Below are positions 4,776 to 39,563 of a stretch of 64,000 nt of DNA, in pieces. The translations under genes and the position numbers were made by a program. How positions within the stretch are numbered: the first letter of the stretch is position 1; every line of letters starts with the position of its first letter. Below the pieces are notes generated by a model that saw only the letters and a program-made list of their open reading frames with translations, was not told where the DNA came from and searched no databases. This DNA comes from Halostella limicola (GTDB lineage Archaea; Halobacteriota; Halobacteria; Halobacteriales; Natronoarchaeaceae): the NCBI RefSeq assembly GCF_003675875.1, contig NZ_RCDI01000002.1, positions 684,786 through 748,785 on the forward strand, read 5' to 3'.

Positions 4776-4902
4776 CCGGTCCGACCCGGTCCCCACCGCC
4801 CCGCCCTCCGCTCCGTGCTCGCTTCGCTGCGCGCGCAGCCACAACCTCAATGCTGTTTAGAGGTCTCAGCGAATCACTCCCGAGAGAATAGCCGGTGATT
4901 CA

Positions 4903-4929
4903 TTTGCCCCGAAGGGGTGCGGGCGCGTT
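4903..4929 (+). promoter_or_regulatory. AGGGG-loop leader motif, copy A
   Basis: The sequence following TTTG has CCCC (4907-4910), GAA, GGGG (4914-4917) and then TGCGGGCGCG. The right half is identical to that of copy B at 6397-6406, but the left arm has decayed, so only a 4-bp hairpin remains. No convincing gene follows, which suggests a relic. Confidence 0.4.
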
Positions 4930-5329
4930 CACCTGTCCTCCAGTTCCAGCAAGACGAATACGTACAGATACGTTTCGTCGAGCCGGGCACGTATCAAGTG
5001 AAACCCGGTGCGGAATACAGAAGTGAGTATGGTGCTGATCCAGAAACCTCCTTTGAGGACTACGTGAACCGCCACGATTGGCAGGAACTGAAAGAACCGC
5101 CATACTGGACGGATAAGACGCTGGCCGTGATGATTCCCCTGAAATGGGTGATACGGAGTTATCAACAATCCAAACTGGACAGAGGGGGATACAGAACCGG
5201 AGTAGATTTTCGGATGGTATACTGCACCAATTCGAAAAGGAGAAGGTTGGCACTACAAGTTAGGTTGGTTCCCTTTAACTTTCTATGGTTAAATAAATTC
5301 ATGTATATAAGATAGTGTCTCGCCCGCGT
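4930..5329. other. gene-poor stretch with one doubtful frame
   Basis: A plus-strand frame stays open to 5315 but has no good start and shows no family resemblance. It could be the remains of the gene once driven from leader copy A. Past about 5260 the DNA becomes AT-rich, where the convergent TBP gene ends. Confidence 0.35.
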
Positions 5330-5890
5330 TTATTCAAGAAGGTCGAGATCAAATAAACGAGATTCAACCCTATCAAAAGCCACCTCTGCATCCTCAGGCC
5401 GGCTACCGCCCGTAATAACGATTTTCCCACTGCCAAACAGAAGCACCACAACATCCATCTCCTCTAGACGATACACTAACCCTGGAAATTGTTCAGGTTC
5501 ATACTCCACATGCTCCAGCCCGAGTCCAATCGCAATCGCATTAAGATTCAAACGGGAAGAAAGGTCAGCGCTCGAAACGATATTCTGGATCTCTACCTCT
5601 GGTTCAGCGGGGATCTCAAGCCCTAACCCTTGAAGCGTTTCAAATGTCAACGACACTGCTTCAGTCAAATCATCAATTGACTGTGCGCCAGTGCACACCA
5701 CTTTCCCTGACCGGAAAATCAAACAAGTCGCCTTCGGCTCCTCGATTCGGTAGATAACTCCTGGGAACTGACCGGGATCATAGCTGACTTCATCCAGGTC
5801 ATCTGCCAAGGTCTCTAAATCCAACTCCTGCTCAATACTACTGGATCCGACTACATTCTCGGTGGAGATAGTATCTTTCGGTGGAACCAT
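5330..5890 (-). CDS. tbp: TATA-binding protein (accessory TBP)
   Basis: The 186-residue protein is a general transcription factor that binds the TATA box and recruits TFB and RNA polymerase. It has the two imperfect repeats of the TBP saddle: about residues 8-92 and 98-180. Each carries the paired motifs FPG(V/L)(I/V)YR(I/L)EE and a following (I/L)(I/L)F(R/G)SGK(V/I)V(C/I)TG. The tail is acidic as usual in haloarchaea. Its codon use is more AT-rich than that of nearby genes. Haloarchaea often carry extra tbp copies on plasmids; here an extra tfb sits 5 kb away. The gene is alone on its strand. Confidence 0.93.
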   Translation of the reverse strand: MVPPKDTISTENVVGSSSIEQELDLETLADDLDEVSYDPGQFPGVIYRIEEPKATCLIFRSGKVVCTGAQSIDDLTEAVSLTFETLQGLGLEIPAEPEVEIQNIVSSADLSSRLNLNAIAIGLGLEHVEYEPEQFPGLVYRLEEMDVVVLLFGSGKIVITGGSRPEDAEVAFDRVESRLFDLDLLE

Positions 5891-5995
5891 ACCCTGTTAA
5901 CTACACATTCGGTTATCGCATACATATAGTAATGGTAGTTTCCGGAGAAGCCCTCTGCATCCGTCAAACAACCGGTTGAACCAGCTAATCCTGTT

Positions 5996-6240
5996 TCAAG
6001 TAGTACGCAGGTGGTCGGTACGAGGTTCGTAGACCTCGCCTAGCTGCTTCAACTTCTCAATCATCGCATCTATTTGTGAAGAACTCACACCTACTTCATT
6101 CGCTCTTTCCCTCAATACCTCAACAGGAGCACCTTCATCATGCTCCTCCTCAATATCCTGGATTAGAGCCTTGAACTGGTCGCGCAAATCACGTTCAGCC
6201 CTCCTCTGTTTCCACTACGTCGGCATCAAACTGGAACGTG
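5996..6240 (-). pseudogene. fragment of MCM helicase: C-terminal winged-helix domain
   Basis: A frame from a TTG at 6187 encodes 63 residues matching the C-terminal winged helix of archaeal MCM: EEEHDEGAPVE, a helix, then EKLKQLGEVYEPRTDHLRTT at the end. Upstream in another frame (about 6194-6240) the segment FDADVVET resembles the sequence that precedes this domain in MCM, followed by a stop. A single frameshift between the two would explain both. No ATPase domain is present. It is thus most likely a relic, though expression of the small domain alone from the TTG cannot be ruled out. Confidence 0.6.
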
Positions 6241-6383
6241 AATCACGCAGAAGAACAGTACGACAATGCATTTCTGGATCTCCTCGAAGACGCGATCGAT
6301 AAGACAACTTCACCCTAACTTCGGAGTTATCGCGATAAATAAGTCGTACAGAACCCTGTGAACCAGGGCCTCTACGTTTATTT

Positions 6384-6405
6384 GCGCCCGCAGGGGTGCG
6401 GGCGC
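6384..6405 (+). promoter_or_regulatory. AGGGG-loop leader motif, copy B (perfect 9-bp stem)
   Basis: GCGCCCGCA (6384-6392), GGGG, TGCGGGCGC (6397-6405) form a perfect 9-bp stem. The element follows the T-rich TTTATTT (6378-6383) and ends 23 bases before the ATG at 6429. Confidence 0.6.
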
Positions 6406-6428
6406 GTTCATCTGTGTCCGTCTCGCTT

Positions 6429-6638
6429 ATGACGCCAGTAGAACACCAGCGACGGCAAGAGGCAACGGACGAACTCGAACAATGGTTAGTCACGCACGCG
6501 GAAGCAGGTGTCCCGGAACTCGCACTCGTCGCGGTCCTGCGGAGGTACGCGACGACGGTCGACACGGTCGGATACGTCCCTCGACTGTGGGTGGACACCT
6601 CGTCGACGGACGATCCTCATTCGGATCGACGAGGATGA
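6429..6638 (+). CDS. small plasmid-type protein of unknown function
   Basis: The ATG at 6429 gives 69 residues; a GTG inside the hairpin at 6396 is an unlikely start. The sequence is mainly helical: an acidic N-terminal helix (HQRRQEATDELEQWL), then VPELALVAVLRRYA and a short tail. No family is recognised. It is placed right behind leader hairpin B and is followed 44 bases later by a small zinc-finger gene in the same direction, so the two may be cotranscribed. Confidence 0.6.
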   Translation: MTPVEHQRRQEATDELEQWLVTHAEAGVPELALVAVLRRYATTVDTVGYVPRLWVDTSSTDDPHSDRRG

Positions 6639-6682
6639 TCCGAACACTCCTCGTCTGTCTCCCGACCGCGGGCGGCGGTTCG

Positions 6683-6787
6683 ATGGTCATCTACGAATGC
6701 CGGCGATGCGGGAAAGATCTCGATTCGGAAGCAGAGCGGTGTCCGTACTGCGGACAGACGGACGTAGTCGAGTACGAGATCGGCTGA
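6683..6787 (+). CDS. CPxCG-type small zinc-finger protein
   Basis: A 34-residue protein with CRRCG at residues 5-9 and CPYCG near 21-25: two Cys pairs that would bind one zinc ion. It belongs to the class of very small haloarchaeal zinc-finger proteins, several of which affect growth, biofilm or regulation. The acidic tail VVEYEIG is typical. The gene follows the 69-residue gene on the same strand and ends about 50 bases before leader hairpin C. Confidence 0.75.
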   Translation: MVIYECRRCGKDLDSEAERCPYCGQTDVVEYEIG

Positions 6788-6836
6788 AATCGCCGACGAA
6801 TTCCGACGACTGCTGTTTCCTCTATAGCGATTTTTT

Positions 6837-6874
6837 GTGCCCCTGAGGGGTGCGGGGCACGCTTCGACGTGCCC
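6837..6874 (+). promoter_or_regulatory. AGGGG-loop leader motif, copy C, with a competing second hairpin
   Basis: GTGCCCC (6837-6843) pairs with GGGGCAC (6854-6860) around TGAGGGGTGC. The same right arm can instead pair downstream: GGGCACG (6855-6861) with CGTGCCC (6868-6874) across a six-base loop. The two 7-bp hairpins exclude each other. The run TTTTTT (6831-6836) precedes, and the SWIM gene starts at 6884, ten bases past the second hairpin. Confidence 0.6.
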
Positions 6875-6883
6875 TGCGGACCC

Positions 6884-7330
6884 ATGACTGTTCCACTAGC
6901 TCACTTAGACGTTACAACGCGCGTCGTGAAGCGCGCACAGTACGAGGCCTTCGAGTTCACCGTCGACGAACGCGGCGTCCGCGTCAGAAACGGGAGTCAC
7001 GCGAACCCCGACGAACACGAGTACCTCGTCACGGTCGACGAGGAGATCCCAAGCTCCTGCGAGTGTCCGGCGGACGAACACTACGACGGCGCCTGCAAGC
7101 ATCGCGTTGCCGTCGCGATTCGGGAACCGGTCCTCACGGCCGCGATTCACCAGCAGGTCGCCACAGATGGTGGCGCGACGGCAACGGATGATACGGCCGG
7201 GGAAAGCGACGAAACAACCGACGAAAAGCGATCAGGCGATGCTGCGAACTGTGACTGTGAGGAACTCGCCGGTGACTTCCCGTGCTGGGAGTGCGTCCGA
7301 ACTGGGCGACGTGAACTTCCTAACGCCTGA
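6884..7330 (+). CDS. SWIM zinc-finger protein
   Basis: A 148-residue protein with a SWIM-type zinc motif C-x-C-x9-C-x-H (C59, C61, C71, H73). SWIM domains bind DNA or proteins; stand-alone versions are frequent on haloarchaeal plasmids. After an acidic Thr/Asp-rich linker (about 95-120) a second cysteine group appears near the end (CDCEEL and CWEC), a possible second metal site. The ATG at 6884 was chosen because it follows the hairpin leader and a T-rich promoter-like stretch. Confidence 0.82.
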   Translation: MTVPLAHLDVTTRVVKRAQYEAFEFTVDERGVRVRNGSHANPDEHEYLVTVDEEIPSSCECPADEHYDGACKHRVAVAIREPVLTAAIHQQVATDGGATATDDTAGESDETTDEKRSGDAANCDCEELAGDFPCWECVRTGRRELPNA

Positions 7331-7461
7331 GCAACGGATGAATCGATCATCCTACGAGGCCACTGTGACCGTTCCCAGTTCGTTCCCTTTCAGGTAGCTG
7401 CCTTGAACTCAATAATTCTAGCTTGAAGTAGAATTGTACGCCCCAAACGGTATATCACCCT

Positions 7462-7998
7462 ATGACTACGGACGATTCGACAGACGATCCGCCGGGAACT
7501 GCGACGTGGAAAGAACACACAAGCGCGTTCGACCGCGTTCAGAGTGTCGCACTGACGGTCTCGGAGCCACGAACCGCATCCTGGATCGCCGAGGAAGCGC
7601 TGGTCGCAGAGAACACTGCACGGAGTCACCTGCAACGACTCACCGACCTGAACGTCCTGACGGCCAATAATAGCACTGATGCAACGAGGTACTACCCAGA
7701 TCCAGTGTACGTACGGACGCGGGAGCTGCGTGCACTCGTCGATGAACACGACCGGGACGAACTGGTAGATCTCGCCGCGGACCTCAAGGCGGATATCGAG
7801 GAGTGGCAATCCGAGTACGACGTCGCCAACCCGGACGATGTCCGCGTCGGCGCAGTTGCCGAAGAAGTGTCCGCGGAGGCAGCACGGAAACGACGGCGGG
7901 ACGCGAGTGACTGGGAGCACACCCGCTACCGTCTCTCGCTCGTTCAGGATGCGCTTGAACACTACGGCGAGTTCACTGGACGGTCAGCGCTGGCATGA
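7462..7998 (+). CDS. winged-helix regulator, DUF7342-like
   Basis: The protein has 178 residues. About residues 20-75 form a helix-turn-helix of the ArsR/MarR type (TASWIAEEALVAENTARSHL, then a wing ending in RYYPDP). The remainder is a helical, highly charged tail with AADLKADIEEWQ and RKRRRDASDWEHTRY. This layout matches a haloarchaeal family that is often followed by a small partner gene, as here: its TGA overlaps the next ATG (ATGA at 7995-7998). It probably represses its own operon, as a possible antitoxin-like regulator. The partner link is inference from gene order. Confidence 0.7.
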   Translation: MTTDDSTDDPPGTATWKEHTSAFDRVQSVALTVSEPRTASWIAEEALVAENTARSHLQRLTDLNVLTANNSTDATRYYPDPVYVRTRELRALVDEHDRDELVDLAADLKADIEEWQSEYDVANPDDVRVGAVAEEVSAEAARKRRRDASDWEHTRYRLSLVQDALEHYGEFTGRSALA

Positions 7999-8843
7999 CC
8001 TTCTTCGCTGTTGAACAGACAGTATCCAGCCTCCGTTCGGATGGCGGCCGAGAGCCGGACGACCCCGGGCAGGAACGACATCGTATCCTTCGTGAACTCC
8101 AACGCGAACTTGAGCGCCATCCTGCAGTGGAACACGTACGTGGGATCCCGGACGGTAAATTCCGGGAACTGCGGGCCGAACTCGTTCCCGCGATACTTGG
8201 GAGCGACGCCGACCACGCGACGCTTCGCGTTGCCTGGTGGCCGAGCCCAGTCGAACCGGAGTTCGTGTTTCACTATCTTTCTTCAGGGAGAGAATCCCGC
8301 CGTTTACGGTGGGAGTGAACCCGCCAATTCCTTCACGAACCACGTATCGACGCTAATACGGATATTTAAGCAGTATCGGTTCATAGCAGGACATACGCTG
8401 AGGCGGTCACACCGCCCGCATAAATGCACAATATCAGGACCCTGAGGCCCATAACGTTCGAGACGTCCTCTCGAACCGCTGTGGTGTCTCGGCCAAGATA
8501 ACTCCGAGTCCCATGCCAGGATAGGAGTAACGGCGGTGTGGCCCCGCCATCAACCCGTCATGCCGTCGGGTCGTAAACCATCAAATATCCCAATCCAGCG
8601 GTGCGGTGCCGTGGGAAGCCTCACCGTTTACGGCGAGGAGGAGGTCATAGCGAGAGTACGGGATTCGACTGCGGGTGACACCGCGAACCGAACCCTCACG
8701 TCGAGGGAACGACGCACTTTCAGGTCAGACAGTCATCGGAGGCTGACTACGAGTATCGATCGATCTCGTTCGATGCGGAGACGCCGTTGCGGACCCTCTG
8801 GGCTGTCCTCGACCGACTCACAGAACGTCTGGACGGTCCGTAG
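7995..8843 (+). pseudogene. partner gene of the winged-helix regulator, split by an insertion
   Basis: The 5' part (7995-8276) ends in the residues EFVFHY. The 3' part (8649-8843) reads SESTGFDCG, a TGA stop at 8676, then HREPNPHVEG and on to DRLTERLDGP. Both parts are in the same frame. Removing 8277-8648 (372 bp, a multiple of three) joins them into one continuous protein, with the TGA where a Trp codon TGG would be expected. As far as I can recall, haloarchaeal proteins encoded behind DUF7342 genes carry a matching GFDCGWHREPNPH segment. The gene is therefore dead twice over: by insertion and by a nonsense change. Confidence 0.75.
8277..8648 (+). mobile_element. 372-bp IS200/IS605-type remnant without transposase (omega-RNA-like end)
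   Basis: The insert has no open transposase gene and no target duplication. Near its left end is a hairpin CCCGCCGTTTACGGTGGG (8297-8314). Near its right end is a related hairpin CCTCACCGTTTACGGCGAGG (8621-8640). The GTTTACGG loop and the preceding stretch from about 8530 resemble the 3' region of haloarchaeal IS1341/TnpB elements, where the sense-overlapping RNA now called omega RNA is encoded. IS605-type elements insert without target duplication, which fits the clean reading-frame junction. I read it as a small non-autonomous derivative. Confidence 0.6.
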
Positions 8844-9032
8844 CACCCTCTCGATCGCGGAGTCGGTATCAAAGAAGCCGGTGATACCTCTATAGCCTGC
8901 TTTCAAGTGGAAAAGCTGATCCCCGCTGCCGATTCCAGCTAGGTTGAATTCTCAGGGCCACACCATCGCAACATCTCGATCTCCGGCGAATCAAATTATC
9001 ACATCCATATTTCGAGCGTGCAACTACTGCCA

Positions 9033-9335
9033 CTACGTTCCTGGATTGAGATGAATAGCGATCCGGTGGCCTCGCTCCACTGCAGTGAGATGTTCCACCT
9101 CTGTCGGAATGTTCAGGTTGGCGAGTTTGCGGGTATAGACGGCTGCATTCTCCAACGCTTCCGCACGGTTGCCGGGCAGTTCCAATGCAATGGATTGGGG
9201 CTGACGGAGTCGTTCTAGTGCGTGGTCATTGCCGTGTTTTGCACTCACAATAGTGCTCGTGAAATAGAACGATTTTTTCAGTTCTTGGAATGTGTTCGCG
9301 TGTTTCTCGACGTCAGCTGTGGTAGATTCGACCAT
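9033..9335 (-). CDS. hypothetical protein, 100 aa
   Basis: The frame from the ATG at 9335 encodes a mixed helix/strand protein (VEKHANTFQELKKSFYFTSTIVS..., ALENAAVYTRKLANLNIPTEV). Its composition is natural rather than the biased kind of antisense frames, and no competing gene lies opposite. No family is recognised. It is divergently placed to the next gene, whose ATG lies 105 bases away. Confidence 0.5.
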   Translation of the reverse strand: MVESTTADVEKHANTFQELKKSFYFTSTIVSAKHGNDHALERLRQPQSIALELPGNRAEALENAAVYTRKLANLNIPTEVEHLTAVERGHRIAIHLNPGT

Positions 9336-9439
9336 CGCATCTTGGTGAAGGTCGGGGTGTGCCGTAATGACTCTTGCACCACCCCCGCGCGCGAGGCGGC
9401 GATAGTGGTTATGGCACTCCAGTTCATCGTCCCAGTAGA

Positions 9440-10594
9440 ATGACTACTGAACGGGTGCGGGCATACTGGAACGACCAGGCGCTCACGGAAACGAACGGCT
9501 ATCGCCACGTATTCGGAACATGGTCACACAAGGATGGGGAAGGGCCCGAAGTTGCTGTCTCCCCGTCTGAACAGGGGTTCTATTCCGTACTTGCTTGTCC
9601 CGACAATTCGAATCGTATCCTCTCGTTGACCCTGGATCGATCGCCAGAAACTGGGACCTACGTCTTCACACCGCCACATCCAGAGTACGATTTCAAGGTA
9701 CGGATCGAATACGAGGAACCTCCATATCCGGCGGCGGAGATGCTGACGCTTGATGTCCAGTCGTCCCTATGTAATGTCTCGGTTGGAGACGACATCGTCA
9801 TTGGGCTTCGAAAGGACGCAACCGTATCCCCCGGAACAAAAGAAATCCAAGGAGATATTGTCCAGCTCGTCGATTCCTGTGGGGCTGTCCCTGATTACAC
9901 CTCCTACAATCTGGACTACTCGGACCATCCCGTACTGTCGATGCGAGTGCGGTTTGCCGATGCTGCACCCCTCGATGACGGTCAACTGCGCCAGATACAA
10001 CTGACGCATCGGTTGGAAACCGTTGGTGATGGGAATGGGACACTTGATCTCTATGGGACAGGTGAGCCCTTCGAAATTCGGTGGGAAGGCCCGAGTGATA
10101 CACCTGCCTTGTCCGTTGAATGGGTGCGGATTGAGCCGTCAGACGGCCAGCTATTGGAAATGACCAACGACACACTTCCTGCAGTGGAGTTCACGCCGCT
10201 CAGTGAGTTGTCTGTCGCGGATCGGATTGCCGAACTCGGTGCTGCATTCGATCGTATGCCGAATGTCGCGATTGCGGATGATGCGTTGAGACTGTTCGCC
10301 GAATCGGTCAACGGCACTGTTCCGGAGCGGGAGTTGACCGTACAGTACGAGTCCGCGAAAAGCGGAAATATACTCACGAAGAGTGGCACGTTCGTTGGTG
10401 TCGAATCAGCGTACTATGCCGATCCGAACCGTGCGCGGCACAAAATCAGCTTCACAGATTCGACCCGCCACTACGTCTTAGTCGACCCTCTACCCAATGC
10501 AGACTCCCCAGTCTCGGTCTACAGTAAATCCTATAACCGGTTTTGGGATACTGATTTGGGTGATGTTGTGGATATTAGCATCTCTACCGAGTGA
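9440..10594 (+). CDS. large hypothetical protein, 384 aa
   Basis: The start MTTERVRAYW at 9440 is preferred over the in-frame codon at 9374, which reads through sequence lacking natural composition. The protein is acidic and rich in predicted strands (FKVRIEYEEP, VLSMRVRFAD, RHKISFTDSTRHYVLVDP), with no signal peptide, membrane span or metal motif. A helical segment lies at about 250-290 (SVADRIAELGAAFDRM). I recognise no family. Its GC content is lower than that of the flanking genes. It stands alone between a doubtful minus-strand gene and a decayed LTD-domain relic. Confidence 0.65.
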   Translation: MTTERVRAYWNDQALTETNGYRHVFGTWSHKDGEGPEVAVSPSEQGFYSVLACPDNSNRILSLTLDRSPETGTYVFTPPHPEYDFKVRIEYEEPPYPAAEMLTLDVQSSLCNVSVGDDIVIGLRKDATVSPGTKEIQGDIVQLVDSCGAVPDYTSYNLDYSDHPVLSMRVRFADAAPLDDGQLRQIQLTHRLETVGDGNGTLDLYGTGEPFEIRWEGPSDTPALSVEWVRIEPSDGQLLEMTNDTLPAVEFTPLSELSVADRIAELGAAFDRMPNVAIADDALRLFAESVNGTVPERELTVQYESAKSGNILTKSGTFVGVESAYYADPNRARHKISFTDSTRHYVLVDPLPNADSPVSVYSKSYNRFWDTDLGDVVDISISTE

Positions 10595-10633
10595 ATACGG
10601 GGCGGCTTATCAATTGGAGGCTCTGAGAGATAG

Positions 10634-10778
10634 TGACTGGTGTCGCTTCACACCGGAAGTTGGACCGATACAGAGACTGATCTCTACTGGAAGTGGTTCG
10701 CCGATCTGGGACAAATCGGGCGATACGGTGTTCATCTTCGACGGCTCCGGAACGCTCGTCCACCAGTATCCGTACTAA
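10634..10778 (+). pseudogene. fragment of a lamin-tail-domain (LTD) protein, frameshifted
   Basis: One frame from 10640 reads SLHTGSWTDTETDLYW. A second frame then reads SGSPIWDKSGDTVFIFDG and continues to LVHQYPY and a stop at 10776-10778. Put together, these match the end of the lamin-tail domain found in secreted archaeal nucleases and surface proteins (TGSGTDT, LYW, PVWNN.GDTV.L.D..G..VDSYSY pattern). A stop codon sits just upstream (10634-10636) and a frameshift splits the fragment, so it is a relic. Confidence 0.6.
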
Positions 10779-10851
10779 CGACCGATACCCCGGGGATGCT
10801 CGTTCAAACGAGCGAGCCCCGCTTTGTCGGAAATAGACGGTGGTTGTTTAT

Positions 10852-10890
10852 CGCCCCGTGAGGGGCGCGGGGCGGTCCAAAAGGGCCGTC
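10852..10890 (+). promoter_or_regulatory. AGGGG-loop leader motif, copy D, with a competing second hairpin
   Basis: CGCCCCGTG (10852-10860) and CGCGGGGCG (10866-10874) form a 9-bp stem with one G-T pair around the loop AGGGG. Alternatively GGCGGTCC (10871-10878) pairs with GGGCCGTC (10883-10890) across AAAA with two wobble pairs. The arms overlap, so only one can form. TTTAT (10847-10851) precedes, and the tfb ATG is at 10903. Confidence 0.6.
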
Positions 10891-10902
10891 TCGATACGAC
10901 CG

Positions 10903-11841
10903 ATGTCGCTCAGAGATATCTACGACAGTGGCTTCGACGAGGATACCGACTCGACGACTGACACGGCTTGTCCGGAGTGCGATGGACCACTCCTGACGGC
11001 CGACGGGGAGACGCGGTGTCTCGACTGCGGGCTCGTCACGGACGAGTATCGGCTCGCACACGGGGCGACACCCCGAACGTTCGACGACGGCGACGAGTCC
11101 AAGAAGCGAACCGGGTCGCCGTTGACGCTCGCGAGACACGATCGCGGGCTCACTTCGACAATCGGTAGGAAACGGGACGGGAACGGAAACCTGCTCTCGC
11201 TGGACAAACGACGGCGACTCAATCGCCTTCGGACGCAGCACAACAGGGCGCAACAGCAGTCGAAAGCCGAACGGAACCTCGCGTTCGCCTGCTCCGAGAT
11301 CGCGCGACTCGTGAGTGCCCTCGAGCTCTCCCGTGATCATCGGGAGGAGGCGAGTCTCGTGTACCGACGCGCGCAAGATCAGTCGCTCATCCGAGGGAGG
11401 TCGATCGAGTCGATGGCTGCCGGTAGCGTGTATGCGGCGTGTCGGTGTCGCGGGGAGACGATGACGCTCGAACGGGTCGCGTCCGCGTCGTCGCGGTCGG
11501 TCGACCAGATCGAGAACGCCTACCGCGTCCTCAACCGGGAACTCGGTCTCGAGACGAAACTGCGCCGTCCGCGGTCGTTCGTCCCGCGGTGTGCAAGCGC
11601 CTGCGACGCGTCGATCCCGTCGTCGGTGCAGTATCGCGCGACCGAACTGACGGAACTGGCCGCGGACCACGGACTGGCGAACGGACGGAATCCCGCGGGC
11701 GTCGCAGCGGCCTGTCTGTATCGGGCCGGGCGCGAACGCGACCTCGGCGTCACGCAGGCGGCACTGGCGACGGCCGCGTCCGTGAGTCCGGCGACGCTCC
11801 GAGAACGGTACTACGAACTGGAGGCGTTGCTGGAGGACTGA
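10903..11841 (+). CDS. tfb: transcription initiation factor TFB (accessory)
   Basis: A 312-residue general transcription factor that joins TBP-bound promoters to RNA polymerase. The N-terminal zinc ribbon is intact (C23, C26, C39, C42). A B-reader-like stretch follows (RTFDDGDESKKRTGSPLT, then HDRGLTSTIG). Two cyclin-like repeats occupy about residues 115-205 and 215-305 (for example YRRAQDQSLIRGRSIESMAAGSVYAACR). Several positions depart from the usual TFB pattern (CRCRGETMTLERVAS), so it is a diverged copy. The ATG at 10903 follows leader hairpin D. A TBP gene 5 kb upstream may be its partner; that pairing is inference. Confidence 0.93.
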   Translation: MSLRDIYDSGFDEDTDSTTDTACPECDGPLLTADGETRCLDCGLVTDEYRLAHGATPRTFDDGDESKKRTGSPLTLARHDRGLTSTIGRKRDGNGNLLSLDKRRRLNRLRTQHNRAQQQSKAERNLAFACSEIARLVSALELSRDHREEASLVYRRAQDQSLIRGRSIESMAAGSVYAACRCRGETMTLERVASASSRSVDQIENAYRVLNRELGLETKLRRPRSFVPRCASACDASIPSSVQYRATELTELAADHGLANGRNPAGVAAACLYRAGRERDLGVTQAALATAASVSPATLRERYYELEALLED

Positions 11842-14801: not shown

Positions 14802-14942
14802 GGTGGTTCCCTCTTTCCGAGGATCGCCAGACTGAGGATGCGCTCATCGCAGAGCGTGTGGATATCGGCTGTGTGGCCACTAGCGCTATCTAGAGGGGGA
14901 TTCCAAGAAGGCTAGCAGCCAAGTGATACAGGGTGATATCCT

Positions 14943-21036: not shown

Positions 21037-22317
21037 ATGGGTGCGCTTGCCGACGCGATCGTCGAGGCGCTCACGGAGTTCATCCGCGTCCTGTTCAGCC
21101 CCGTCACGAGCCTCATCGAGACGTACGCGGACGACCTCGTCCGGACGATCGTCGTGACGCCGCATCCGAACGCGGTGTTCTCCCCGCCCACGAACGGCGC
21201 GTGGGGCGGCATCTACGAGTACTATTGGGAGTCGATCGTCCCCCTATCGCTCATGCTCTGGGCGCTGTCGATCGGTCTCGTCATCTTTCTCGAGTCGACG
21301 AGCTACCTATTCAGTTCCTACCACCGTTCGAAGCTCAAGAAGCGAGCCGTCTCGGGGTTGCTCGGGATCCTTTCGTGGTGGTGGCTCGCCGCGATCTCCC
21401 TCCGGCTCATTAGCGCGCTGACGGGATTTATCCTGCCGGATCTGTCCGACGTAACGCTGTTCGAGACGCTGTCGTTCAGCGCACTCGGGGCACTCGGCGT
21501 GATGGTCACCCTCCTGACCGACCTGACGCTGTTCGTCCTGATCGCGCTCATCTACTACGTCCGTCAGGTGGTCCTCTACATGTTCGTCCTGCTGATGCCC
21601 CTGCTCATCGTCTTCTGGATCCCGGGCGTCGGCCCGTTCACACTCGTCTCGCGATTCATGCGCCGGATGGCCGGCTTCTACGTTCCGTTCCTGTTCATGA
21701 CCGTCCCCGTTGCGCTGCTGTTCCGCCTCGGCGCGATCCTCGGGAGCGAACTCGAACTCTCGATGGGCGGGATCGGTGCGTGGCTGACCGCGCTGGTCCT
21801 CCCCTTTGTCGCGCTTGCGACACCGATCGTCCTGTTCTGGCAGGCGGGCGCGCTCTTTTTCGCCGCCGACCGCGCGTCACATCGGATGTCGAAGGGGCGC
21901 GCCCGACAGCGGGTTTCACGAACGAAAGACCGTGGCGGAACGGCCGTCCGCGGCGGCCGGAACTTCGCGCGCGGCGTACAGGGGAAAGCCGCCGTCGATA
22001 GCACCGGCCAGACGAAGTTGCAGAACAACTCCCGCGCTCACGCGATGGGGTCGCGCCTGCACACGACCAGAGTTGGCTTGCGGGAGGCGTTCGGCGGCGG
22101 TACCGACGATAGCCGCCAGCCGGGACGGAGCAACAGAGGTCCCGATCGGTCTACCGGTACCGGCGATACCGACCCGCTTCCACTCGAAGGGCGCACCGAG
22201 GGCGTCGACCCGCTTCGCGACCGGCGGTCACAGGCGCAGGACACGGATCGAACGGATCCCACGGATCCGACTGACACGCCCGCTGACGCTACCGATCCCT
22301 CCGAAGGTGACCAATGA
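21037..22317 (+). CDS. VirB6/TrbL-like polytopic membrane protein
   Basis: The protein has 426 residues and begins on the base after the previous stop. It has about six membrane segments between residues 65 and 275 (for example PLSLMLWALSIGLVIFL, VVLYMFVLLMPLLIVFWI and WLTALVLPFVALATPIVLFW). A long hydrophilic C-terminal tail of about 140 residues follows, first basic, then Asp/Thr/Pro-rich (TDRTDPTDPTDTPADATD). VirB6/TrbL proteins form the inner-membrane channel core of type IV secretion systems. The assignment rests on topology and on its position before VirB3/VirB4-like genes. Confidence 0.65.
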   Translation: MGALADAIVEALTEFIRVLFSPVTSLIETYADDLVRTIVVTPHPNAVFSPPTNGAWGGIYEYYWESIVPLSLMLWALSIGLVIFLESTSYLFSSYHRSKLKKRAVSGLLGILSWWWLAAISLRLISALTGFILPDLSDVTLFETLSFSALGALGVMVTLLTDLTLFVLIALIYYVRQVVLYMFVLLMPLLIVFWIPGVGPFTLVSRFMRRMAGFYVPFLFMTVPVALLFRLGAILGSELELSMGGIGAWLTALVLPFVALATPIVLFWQAGALFFAADRASHRMSKGRARQRVSRTKDRGGTAVRGGRNFARGVQGKAAVDSTGQTKLQNNSRAHAMGSRLHTTRVGLREAFGGGTDDSRQPGRSNRGPDRSTGTGDTDPLPLEGRTEGVDPLRDRRSQAQDTDRTDPTDPTDTPADATDPSEGDQ

Positions 22318-23330
22318 ATAACCACGATCCGACGAAACGAGTTCCGAAGTCGCTGGGCACAGGCACGAAACTGTTCGGCAGGTACACGCTGACCGATCTG
22401 GCGGTCGGACTGTTCCCGGGCGTGGCGGTCATCCTCGTCACGCAGGTACTGTTACCACAGTCTCTCTCGATCGCCGGATACTCACTCCAGGCGTTCGCGC
22501 TCCCGTTCGCTCTCTGTGGCGTTGCGGTCGGCGGGCTGTTCGTCTACCTGACGCCCGAGTACACGACCAGCATCGACTGGATAGAGACGTTTCTCGAGTT
22601 CTACCGTCGCGACCACGAACACTCCCACGACGCCGCGGCCGAGTTCACGAACGTCGAACGGGTCTATCCCGACCAGAACGCGATAGAGCGGACGGACGGC
22701 ACGCTGCTGGCGTTCATACAGGTGATGCCGCCGACGATGGCGCTCGCGACCCGCGAGCGGTGGCACTCGCAGGCGGAATCCTTCCAGGACTTCCTGAATA
22801 CGGTCGTCGAGTTCCCGATCCAGATCTACTCAACGACACAGGAGTTCCCCGCAGAGGACTACCTCTCGCGGTACGAGGACCGCCTCGACGATCCGGACGT
22901 TGCGGATAATCCGCAACTGGCGGCCCTCATCGAGAACTACGTCTCCTGGTACCGGACCGAACTCGAAGAGCGCCAGATGACGATCCGGGATCACTACATC
23001 GTCGTTCCGGTGACGCGAAGTGAGGTACAGTTCGAACGGGAGAGTCTCATACAGAAACTCTCCGCGTTGCCGCTCGTCGGCCTGTTCGTACGGGCGTGGT
23101 TCGCCCCACAGCAGGCCGCACAACACGAAGCGATGATGACGGCTCTGGAGGAACGCTGCCGACGTATCGAAGCCGGTATCAGGGAGATAGAGGGCTGTAG
23201 TGCCGACCGCGCCGCGTCGGCTGAAGCGGTTCGGCTCCTCGACGAGTACTGGTCCGGGGAGTCGGCCGAATACGGCGACCCGGAGCAGGTGCTTCGGACG
23301 CGACCGCTCATCGGAGGGCGATCGGAATGA
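22314..23330 (+). CDS. VirB3/PrgI-like membrane protein of the T4SS, fused to a soluble domain
   Basis: A 338-residue protein overlapping the preceding gene by ATGA. Residues about 22-80 contain two closely spaced membrane helices after a basic start (KRVPKSLGTGTKLFGRYTLTDLAVG), the PrgI/VirB3 pattern. The rest is soluble and resembles the N-terminal domain that precedes the VirB4 ATPase (ERTDGTLLAFIQVMPPTMAL, then RDHYIVVPVTRSEVQF). It could be a split N-terminal half of VirB4, since the ATPase gene starts four bases before its end (ATGA at 23327). Confidence 0.6.
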   Translation: MNNHDPTKRVPKSLGTGTKLFGRYTLTDLAVGLFPGVAVILVTQVLLPQSLSIAGYSLQAFALPFALCGVAVGGLFVYLTPEYTTSIDWIETFLEFYRRDHEHSHDAAAEFTNVERVYPDQNAIERTDGTLLAFIQVMPPTMALATRERWHSQAESFQDFLNTVVEFPIQIYSTTQEFPAEDYLSRYEDRLDDPDVADNPQLAALIENYVSWYRTELEERQMTIRDHYIVVPVTRSEVQFERESLIQKLSALPLVGLFVRAWFAPQQAAQHEAMMTALEERCRRIEAGIREIEGCSADRAASAEAVRLLDEYWSGESAEYGDPEQVLRTRPLIGGRSE

Positions 23331-25282
23331 TCCGAGAGAAACTACCGTTCTTCGACGTAGAAGAAGCGTCCGCCGAGTCCACAGAGGACGAGACAGGCGA
23401 GACGCCGGATTCCGATGACGACGACGTTACCGTCGCGTATGATCCGACGTCAGAACCGCTCGATGACGTCCGCGACGTTCATCAGTCGATCGTCGCACCC
23501 TCGAGTATCGAACACCGGTCGAATGCCGTCCAGACTGGCGACCAAGTGACGAAGTCGTTCTGGGTGAGCGAGTTCCCGGACGCGCCGGTCGACGGCCTGT
23601 TCGAAGGATTGTACTCGACGGCCGAAACGCGAACGACGGACATCTCGATCCACATCGATCCGAGAGACACCGCCGCGACGCTCGACTCCCTTGAGAACAA
23701 GATCGAGGACCTCGAGGCCGACAAGGAGTACCTCGCCGAGAAGCGCCGGGCGGGCGCTCGCGGCGTCACGAAAGACCTGGAGGACTACCGAGAACTGTAC
23801 GACGTCCTCCGGAACACGTCGATGAAGGCGTTCGACGCGTCGATGTACCTGACCGTCCGCGGCGAGAGCGAAGCGGACGTCGACGCGGATGGAGTAGTGA
23901 ACACAGCACGTCGGTCGCCGGCGAACCTCACTCCCGTCCTTCCGCGTTGGGCGCAACTGGAGACGCTGCAGTCGAACAGTCCGGTCGCTGTCGACCGGCT
24001 AAACGACTCGATGGACACGAAAACGCCGATGCTCGGCGGCGCGCTCGGCGCGATGTTCCCCTTCGTCGCCGGCGCGTTCGCCGAACCCGGCATCGAGTAC
24101 GGGACGTACGCGCTCAACGAGAGCCCGCTCATCCTCGACCGCTTCGAACGGGAGACAGGCTACTGCACGATGGTCATCGGAAAACTCGGCGCCGGGAAGT
24201 CGTTCTCGACGAAGCTTCAGCTCGTCCGGCGAGCGATGTACGACCGGGACACGTGCATCATCATGCTCGACCCGCTGGAGGGGTTCGCCGGCGTGAACGA
24301 CGCGCTCGGCGGCGAACGCGTGACCGTCGGCGGGACGCGTGGGTTCAACCCGCTCGAACTGCAGGCGACGCCAGCGGACGTGCTCGAGCGGACGCCCGAC
24401 CTCGATCCATGGAGCGAGCAGATCGACTGGGTGCTCACGTTCTTCGAGACGTTCTTCGACCACGTGGCGAACAATCCCCTCGGCGACCGGAAGCAGACGC
24501 TCAGACGCGCCGTGCAGGTTGCGTACGAACGCCAGGGGATCACTCGGGCGCCGTCGACGCACGACAGGGAGTCGCCGACAGTCCGGACTGTCATCAGCGT
24601 CCTCGAAGCACTGCTGGACGACCCAGGGGAGTTCGGGTACGTCACCGACGGCGAGCGAGAGAGCGTCCGGACCGACGCGCAGTCGCTCCTGACGGACCTG
24701 CGGCCGTCATTCCGCGACGGCGGGGATCTGGAGAATCTCGCGCAACCGACCGAACTGAACCTTGACTCGAAGGTGCTGTATCTGGATCTGCACCAGGAAG
24801 AAGGGACGCGGGGCCGGTCCGAGACCAGCCTGATGATGCAGGTGATCTTCAACGCCGTCTACGAGCGGGCGAAGCAAACGGACAAGAAGGTCGTCTTCGC
24901 GATCGACGAAGCCCACTACCTGATGGGTGACTCGACGTCGCTGGAGTTTCTGGAGACGGCCGTTCGCCACAGTCGCCACTACGACCTCTCCCTGCACTTC
25001 ATCACGCAGACCGGCGGCGAGTTCGCGCTGACGCCGGAAGCACAGACGATCGCGAACCTCTGCTCGATGACGATCATCCACCGCGTGAAGGAGGAGGCCG
25101 AGAAGTTGTCGGAGTGGTTCGGCCTGAGCGAGCGCGAGGTCAACTGGGTGCAGACCGCAAAGGCTGGGAACGAGGACGACGGCTATTCGGAGACATTGCT
25201 CGGTGTTGATGGCGAAGGGTGGTTCCCGTTGCGGGTACGGGCGAGTGAGTATGAGGTAGAACAGATCGATAGAGACGGATAA
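23327..25282 (+). CDS. virB4: VirB4-type conjugation ATPase
   Basis: A 651-residue ATPase of the HerA/VirB4 group that powers pilus assembly or DNA transfer at the membrane. The Walker A motif GKLGAGKS lies near residues 284-291, and Walker B (KVVFAIDEAHYLM) near 520. A further conserved segment (RHSRHYDLSLHFITQTG) follows, as in other VirB4 proteins. A coiled-coil-like region (LDSLENKIEDLEADKEYLAEKRRAG) is at about 120-145. The N-terminal domain is short because the preceding gene appears to carry part of it. The block ends here: no VirD4-type coupling ATPase or relaxase follows. Confidence 0.88.
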   Translation: MIREKLPFFDVEEASAESTEDETGETPDSDDDDVTVAYDPTSEPLDDVRDVHQSIVAPSSIEHRSNAVQTGDQVTKSFWVSEFPDAPVDGLFEGLYSTAETRTTDISIHIDPRDTAATLDSLENKIEDLEADKEYLAEKRRAGARGVTKDLEDYRELYDVLRNTSMKAFDASMYLTVRGESEADVDADGVVNTARRSPANLTPVLPRWAQLETLQSNSPVAVDRLNDSMDTKTPMLGGALGAMFPFVAGAFAEPGIEYGTYALNESPLILDRFERETGYCTMVIGKLGAGKSFSTKLQLVRRAMYDRDTCIIMLDPLEGFAGVNDALGGERVTVGGTRGFNPLELQATPADVLERTPDLDPWSEQIDWVLTFFETFFDHVANNPLGDRKQTLRRAVQVAYERQGITRAPSTHDRESPTVRTVISVLEALLDDPGEFGYVTDGERESVRTDAQSLLTDLRPSFRDGGDLENLAQPTELNLDSKVLYLDLHQEEGTRGRSETSLMMQVIFNAVYERAKQTDKKVVFAIDEAHYLMGDSTSLEFLETAVRHSRHYDLSLHFITQTGGEFALTPEAQTIANLCSMTIIHRVKEEAEKLSEWFGLSEREVNWVQTAKAGNEDDGYSETLLGVDGEGWFPLRVRASEYEVEQIDRDG

Positions 25283-39492: not shown

Positions 39493-39563
39493 CCGTCCTC
39501 CGGGCGTCCCTTGACCTCGTGACGATCGGCGACCGAACGTCGTCTTGATTGCGAAGCCGCTAA

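Follow-up and report, generated by a model that had tools for sequence, protein, structure and literature searches.

The window analysed here, a 64,000-nucleotide stretch of the Halostella limicola genome (contig NZ_RCDI01000002.1, positions 684,786 to 748,785), carries four copies of a short hairpin element, termed copies A to D, all on the + strand. An initial annotation made from the letters of the sequence had reported these hairpins, and we found that they are real and that all four have the full architecture of a T-rich box followed by two pairing arms around a conserved loop core. The positions it gave for copies B, C and D (6384, 6837 and 10852) were accurate, whereas 4903 for copy A falls inside the T-rich block, the stem beginning at 4906. 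Copy A consists of the block TTCATTT (4899-4905) and a hairpin at 4906-4927 with the weak stem GCCC/GGGC (4906-4909/4921-4924), which scores 21.2 bits in the position weight matrix (PWM) described below. T-rich stretches therefore do precede copies B to D, as had been noted, but are not restricted to them. Copy B has the box GTTTATTT (6376-6383) and a hairpin at 6384-6405, in which the 9-bp stem GCGCCCGCA/TGCGGGCGC (6384-6392/6397-6405) encloses the loop GGGG (22.4 bits). The box ATTTTTT of copy C (6830-6836) is followed by a hairpin at 6837-6860 with the 7-bp stem GTGCCCC/GGGGCAC (6837-6843/6854-6860; 32.8 bits), and the box GTTTAT of copy D (10846-10851) by a hairpin at 10852-10874, where CGCCCCGTG/CGCGGGGCG (10852-10860/10866-10874) form nine pairs including one T.G (32.2 bits). 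When the whole window was scanned with the PWM, the four copies scored 21-33 bits and all other positions at most 8.3 bits. The 11-base core by itself is not rare, because it has 7 matches in the 4.1-Mb genome and its reversed control has 20; four of the seven matches cluster in 6 kb, and a T-rich block and a hairpin accompany those four only. A relaxed pattern with one mismatch allowed produced matches at chance level only in the same genome.

Three of the copies stand directly before genes on the + strand. Copy B precedes a 69-residue protein of unknown function without a Pfam match (6429-6638), copy C a SWIM zinc-finger protein (6884-7330; PF04434, 1.2e-8) and copy D a TFB paralogue (10903-11841; PF00382, 2.7e-28). 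The distance from the hairpin end to the ATG is 23, 23 and 28 nt for copies B, C and D, within the 23-29 bases reported initially, which did not apply to copy A. Copy A is akin to copy B but weaker; it has no ATG close by, and the sequence downstream of it looks like a gene remnant. The same strand also encodes a TrbL/VirB6 conjugal transfer protein (21037-22317; PF19590, 5.6e-20) and a VirB4-like conjugation ATPase split into two overlapping open reading frames (ORFs; 22314-23330 and 23327-25282, together 22314-25282), which places the hairpins in a conjugative element, a remnant of one or an island.

Two further features of the region were observed. A TBP paralogue lies between copies A and B on the - strand (5330-5890), and plasmid pSVX82-3 (locus L225) likewise has TFB, TBP, SWIM and ArdC-like genes grouped together. 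The segment 8496-8659 (+) gave a sub-threshold match to RF02656, sot0042 (53 bits against a cut-off of 88, E 7e-12), and also one to HgcC. It resembles the sense-overlapping transcript of haloarchaeal insertion sequence elements, with no evident intact TnpB gene adjoining, and is possibly a TnpB guide-RNA remnant.

A family of hairpin elements on one strand of haloarchaeal plasmids

We searched haloarchaeal genomes for the exact core pattern CCCCNNNAGGGGYGCGGGG, with the reversed pattern as control. It matched in 154 of the 392 genomes of the order, representing 51 of 95 genera and mostly on plasmids, and the reversed pattern did not match at all. Searches at the family level were positive in 73/148, 46/125 and 14/26 genomes, and the controls of all three together matched once. 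A blastn search against PLSDB retrieved 112 plasmids; the matches listed were haloarchaeal and nearly all outside annotated genes. A PWM was then built iteratively from 168 loci (2.28 Mb). It found 954 matches above 10 bits in these loci and 9 in the reversed sequence, and 679 against 0 above 18 bits. Because the matrix was trained on the loci that were scanned, the test lies in the reversed control and not in the absolute counts. The searches across haloarchaea revealed a strongly non-random family tied to gene starts; the initial observation holds and was understated. The elements had no match among the covariance models of Rfam 15. We found no published description in the literature searched for the core sequence, haloarchaeal palindromes, leading regions and structured RNAs, a coverage that excludes most subscription journals, and the terms searched in a study of pR1SE-type vesicle plasmids (PMC10818511) brought up no mention of promoters or TFB. 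The four hairpins thus belong to a family that is very large and apparently undescribed, made up of short elements positioned directly ahead of genes in haloarchaeal conjugative plasmids.

The exact core also occurred in 41 stretches of viral contigs, none of which had the full box-hairpin-start architecture on inspection, giving no evidence for a haloviral element. A general scan of genome contigs was swamped by Streptomyces matches to CCCCNNNAGGGGYGCGGGG and added little; some of these form evenly spaced arrays (for example in loci L049, 2753-3087, and L066) and are probably unrelated GC-rich repeats. A look-alike, ATTCATTTTAGCCCGGAACGGGCGCGGGCGGTGCGGAGAGCGCCCG, recurs in either orientation, near 11521 (-) in plasmid pJ7-1 (L327) and in loci L310, L323, L242, L285 and L289, and is probably a different repeat.

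The element reads, in order, GTTTNT box, 0-4 nt, 5' arm, loop core ANGGGYG, 3' arm and start codon, and the conserved block spans about 30 bp in all. Among 302 elements less than 70% alike, the box positions G-T-T-T-N-T are conserved at 92, 98, 92, 90, - and 94%. The T-block begins 14-17 nt 5' of the loop A, and upstream of it there is a weak G/C bias only. Stems average 7.1 bp (range 5-12 bp), and most loops have 5-14 nt. The compensatory arms described initially were borne out by the whole family, in which the best Watson-Crick helix between an element's own arms scores 6.16 on average and that between arms dealt to other elements 4.72 (standard deviation 0.058). A helix score of 5 is reached by 138 different stem sequences, and low-scoring members have entirely exchanged stems, such as GGGGC/GCCCC (L232, L311), GAGCCTCCA/TGGAGGCTC (L231), CGCCGC/GCGGCG (L296) and GGGCC/GGCCC (L255). 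Stems also differ between copies within one plasmid, as in pJ7-1. Pairing is therefore conserved, and the stem sequence is free. Two additional structures were considered and rejected. An inner pairing of position -1 with +5 did not covary beyond independence. A second hairpin in the leader was hinted at by a few TFB leaders, but its frequency is near that of the shuffled and flanking controls, and further inverted repeats 3' of the first hairpin are no general feature.

Gene starts were assigned by ORF heuristics rather than annotation (ATG-started, at least 50 codons, 8-110 nt downstream). By this definition, an ORF starts 3' of 628 of the 699 distinct matches, compared with 137 on the opposite strand, confirming the placement ahead of start codons; the median distance from the loop A to the start codon is 41 nt. 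About 15 protein families recur downstream, the counts being 125 for DUF6166 and its relatives, 80 for the MHMVIY family, 79 for DUF6735, 78 for plasmid TFB, 68 for MATLQA, 60 for a 62-residue family, 37 for DUF6610 and 36 for a family with an ArdC-N domain. Two SWIM families are also among them, and the SWIM family of the window stands behind an element in 14 cases. ArdC is known as an anti-restriction, single-stranded DNA (ssDNA)-binding protein that is required in the recipient (PMC7213743). In a hand tally, 39 of 48 genomes that contain the exact core also had a plasmid TFB (best E <1e-105), compared with 10 of 107 genomes that lack the core (p=9e-19); since TFB genes themselves carry the element, this association reflects linkage and is no proof that TFB reads the element. 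Together with the location in plasmids, the recurrent families support the idea of a shared regulon of mobile DNA, which had been raised from the three genes in the window.

Orientation is coherent along the plasmids. We compared 637 elements scoring above 15 bits in 100 loci of up to 20 kb. Within each locus they share a strand (635 of 637), apart from two exceptions that are both the look-alike repeat ATTCATTTTAGCCCGGAACGGGCGCGGGCGGTGCGGAGAGCGCCCG. Among the matches listed, a hand count of plasmid-type contigs with copies about 20 kb or more apart found one strand throughout in 28 of 31 (p=5e-6). In two complete plasmids, pJ7-1 of Natrinema sp. J7-2 (13 of 14 matches) and Salinigranum unnamed4 (12 of 12), an arc of 35-40 kb that starts directly past the primase genes is occupied by the elements, which are co-oriented with the transfer operon. 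The operon of pJ7-1 encodes TrbL/VirB6 (PF19590, 1.7e-134), a HerA-like ATPase and a primase, and by our own reading one of its frames probably encodes a VirB4-like ATPase. About 30 to 45% of the arc genes are oppositely oriented, and none of those has an element.

When relatives are compared, their homology often ends at the box or at the hairpin 5' edge (77 of 153 pairs; 1,681 pairs in a second count). Loci with the same gene are often alike only from the box or this edge onward, indicating that element and gene travel as a unit. A few pairs (44) have the upstream sequence in common and break at the 3' arm, and the breakpoints are scattered across about 30 nt. Recombination between elements can produce this pattern; an attC-like site is possible and is not needed. 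In L278 (14394, -) and L316 (13091, +) the 3' arm is cut in mid-hairpin (GGGGTGCGGCCGCG...) and the upstream sequence matches intact relatives, so these truncated copies are rearrangement junctions within the element.

Promoter, RNA leader or operator

The initial annotation left open whether the element is an RNA leader or a DNA operator between TATA box and start site. The evidence leans, without settling the question, toward an element that acts as DNA, lying 3' of a TATA-like box and 5' of the start site. The element is new for archaea and of the establishment-regulon kind, and it is most likely a promoter whose spacer between TATA box and start forms a DNA hairpin. We give about an even chance to the specific proposal that an establishment regulon of the leading-region type in haloarchaeal conjugative plasmids has these elements as its common cis-regulatory site, and that they act as core promoters at the DNA level.

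Four observations point in this direction. First, GTTTNT is the sole AT-rich signal within 130 bp upstream, alike in co-directional, divergent and isolated contexts, and upstream genes often terminate right at this box; a gene with its own promoter must therefore use the T-block. The T-block resembles the haloarchaeal TATA consensus TTWT (PMC4983044), the TTTNT box having T/A at position 3 in 80% of the elements. Second, the first T (T0) and the 3' end of the stem are 28.8 +- 2.1 nt apart, and the hairpin thus fills the usual spacing between TATA box and start, start sites being presumed here. Third, almost no ATG lies nearer to T0 than about 34 nt, and in a leaderless-like group the distance is 34-37 nt. 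In the leaderless-like families the ATG lies 4-8 nt past the stem, where a stem in RNA would be expected to obstruct initiation. Fourth, the stems contain 2,645 Watson-Crick, 19 G.T and 15 A.C pairs and so do not show the tolerance of G.U that is typical of RNA stems. No tRNA genes were found in the plasmid loci that could have served as a reference for G.U content.

Several points weigh against such a promoter. Near-identical relatives differ by G.T more often than by A.C (104 vs 58, the pairs not being independent), a mild hint of top-strand structure. Taken as a strand test, the asymmetry of G.U and A.C gave no bias within helices and a mild one between near relatives. The elements have neither the canonical B recognition element (BRE) CGAAA, in place of which we saw only a G-rich bias, nor an AT-rich -10 region. 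The T-block itself varies (TTGTT, TTTGT, TCTAT) and stands outside the stem, in contrast to the Frpo promoters discussed below. Finally, a conserved loop with a covarying stem is equally an RNA signature.

This signature is the starting point for an RNA leader, in which the hairpin would belong to the 5' untranslated region or to intercistronic RNA, and a plasmid or host protein would bind the ANGGG loop and control translation or stability. The position directly before start codons suits this explanation, as does the mild G.T excess among near relatives. Many elements, moreover, occupy short intervals between genes of the same direction, and read-through transcripts would include the hairpin there. 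However, no promoter-like AT-rich signal exists 5' of the element, not even in loci with a divergent upstream gene or none at all. The rarity of G.T, which equals that of A.C within stems, the ATG merely 4-8 nt past the stem in some families and the missing Rfam match also argue against it. With the four observations above set against the G.T excess, the missing BRE and the RNA-like signature, we consider an RNA leader possible but rather doubtful.

A double-stranded operator or activator site by the TATA box, where a repressor or activator would read a GGG-YG-C-GGG duplex and the palindrome would be a dimer footprint, seems unlikely. The location between TATA-like box and presumed start and the strongly conserved ANGGGYG core agree with it. 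However, the arms change fully and stay complementary even among the copies of one plasmid, which speaks against a dimer that reads the duplex, as such a protein would keep the half-site sequence, and the box-loop spacing varies (14-17 nt). For the same reason, an ordinary operator bound by one protein is unsupported, up to 14 elements of a single plasmid carrying different stems. Least of all do we believe in an attC-like folded site for the exchange of gene cassettes: the homology breaks described above would suit it, but the distance to the start codon is consistent, a breakpoint spread of about 30 nt fits homologous recombination between repeats or lost upstream constraint, and no linked recombinase was found, though no search was aimed at one.

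As a core promoter, the element might work as follows. The GTTTNT block would be the TATA box, the hairpin would sit between it and the start, and transcription would begin at about the hairpin 3' end. The stem would be free to change provided that pairing holds, and the ANGGGYG loop would be recognised specifically. As an ordinary duplex, the GC-rich spacer would open poorly. Entry of the strand as ssDNA, or strong supercoiling, could fold the hairpin and switch the site on, and the genes for ArdC-like anti-restriction, TFB, SWIM and DUF6735/6166/6610 proteins would be expressed early in the recipient. The loop reader may be the plasmid's own TFB/TBP. A more far-reaching version, which we put forward only tentatively and think improbable as a whole, is that these are the first archaeal DNA-hairpin promoters, active only on the single-stranded or extruded incoming strand, with the loop read by plasmid TFB/TBP or another factor, and that through them at least a dozen genes form a zygotic-induction regulon.

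Known systems and biological meaning

The Frpo/ssi single-stranded DNA promoters were reportedly described by Masai and Arai in 1997. As in that system, hairpin elements here precede anti-restriction and putative establishment genes, on one strand and near conjugation genes. Frpo/ssi promoters lie in the leading regions of F-like plasmids (Samuel et al. 2024, PMC11541004). Here, the arc adjoins the TrbL/VirB6-VirB4-primase operon and includes ArdC-like genes, which makes its position a putative leading one. All copies of Frpo/ssi promoters are on the transferred strand; the copies here keep to one strand, which may or may not be the transferred one. Frpo boxes are within the folded stem, whereas GTTTNT is unpaired and 5' of it. 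The present elements are also archaeal, much shorter and found in dozens of sequence-divergent copies, and their activity on ssDNA is putative.

The promoters of the phage N4 virion RNA polymerase are likewise short DNA hairpins just before the start, with a conserved loop and a paired stem whose non-conserved bases are free provided that the hairpin forms (PMC4496689), and the same freedom is found here. In contrast, N4 loops have 3 nt and not 5-14 nt, and their reader is a single-subunit phage RNA polymerase, where we presume the archaeal TBP/TFB machinery. The establishment gene regulatory sequences (EGeRS) of pLS20-family plasmids (PMC8708921) place one conserved sequence before several operons, including ardC, within one part of the plasmid. 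A corresponding arrangement exists in pJ7-1, whose 14 element matches include those at 14879, 17218, 17647 and 39472; the last of these precedes an ArdC-like gene at 39530. However, EGeRS1 covers 400-750 bp with many repeats, whereas the present block measures about 30 bp and has a single covarying hairpin, and EGeRS2 is a sigma-A promoter with the heptamers TTATCCC of a ribbon-helix-helix repressor, which are absent here. The STAXI motif (Weinberg et al. 2010, PMC2864571) is a structured motif near ssDNA-binding and anti-restriction genes that raises the same question of RNA or ssDNA, but it is a tandem pseudoknot, and no Rfam model matches our elements. With its box outside the stem, a loop of more than 3 bases and a length of about 30 bp, the element was assigned to none of these systems.

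Almost nothing is known about the means by which conjugative plasmids of archaea become established in new hosts and escape their defences. The elements look like a common on-switch for the genes that a plasmid uses to establish in a new cell. They provide a sequence handle with very few false matches that tags about 15 mostly uncharacterised families. Next to the conjugation operon these families act together like a single regulon, and the element can therefore serve to predict genes for establishment and anti-defence in archaea. Should the hairpin act as DNA, archaea would have a counterpart of the hairpin promoters of the Frpo or N4 type, which would show how transcription based on TBP/TFB can be made to depend on the structure of the DNA.

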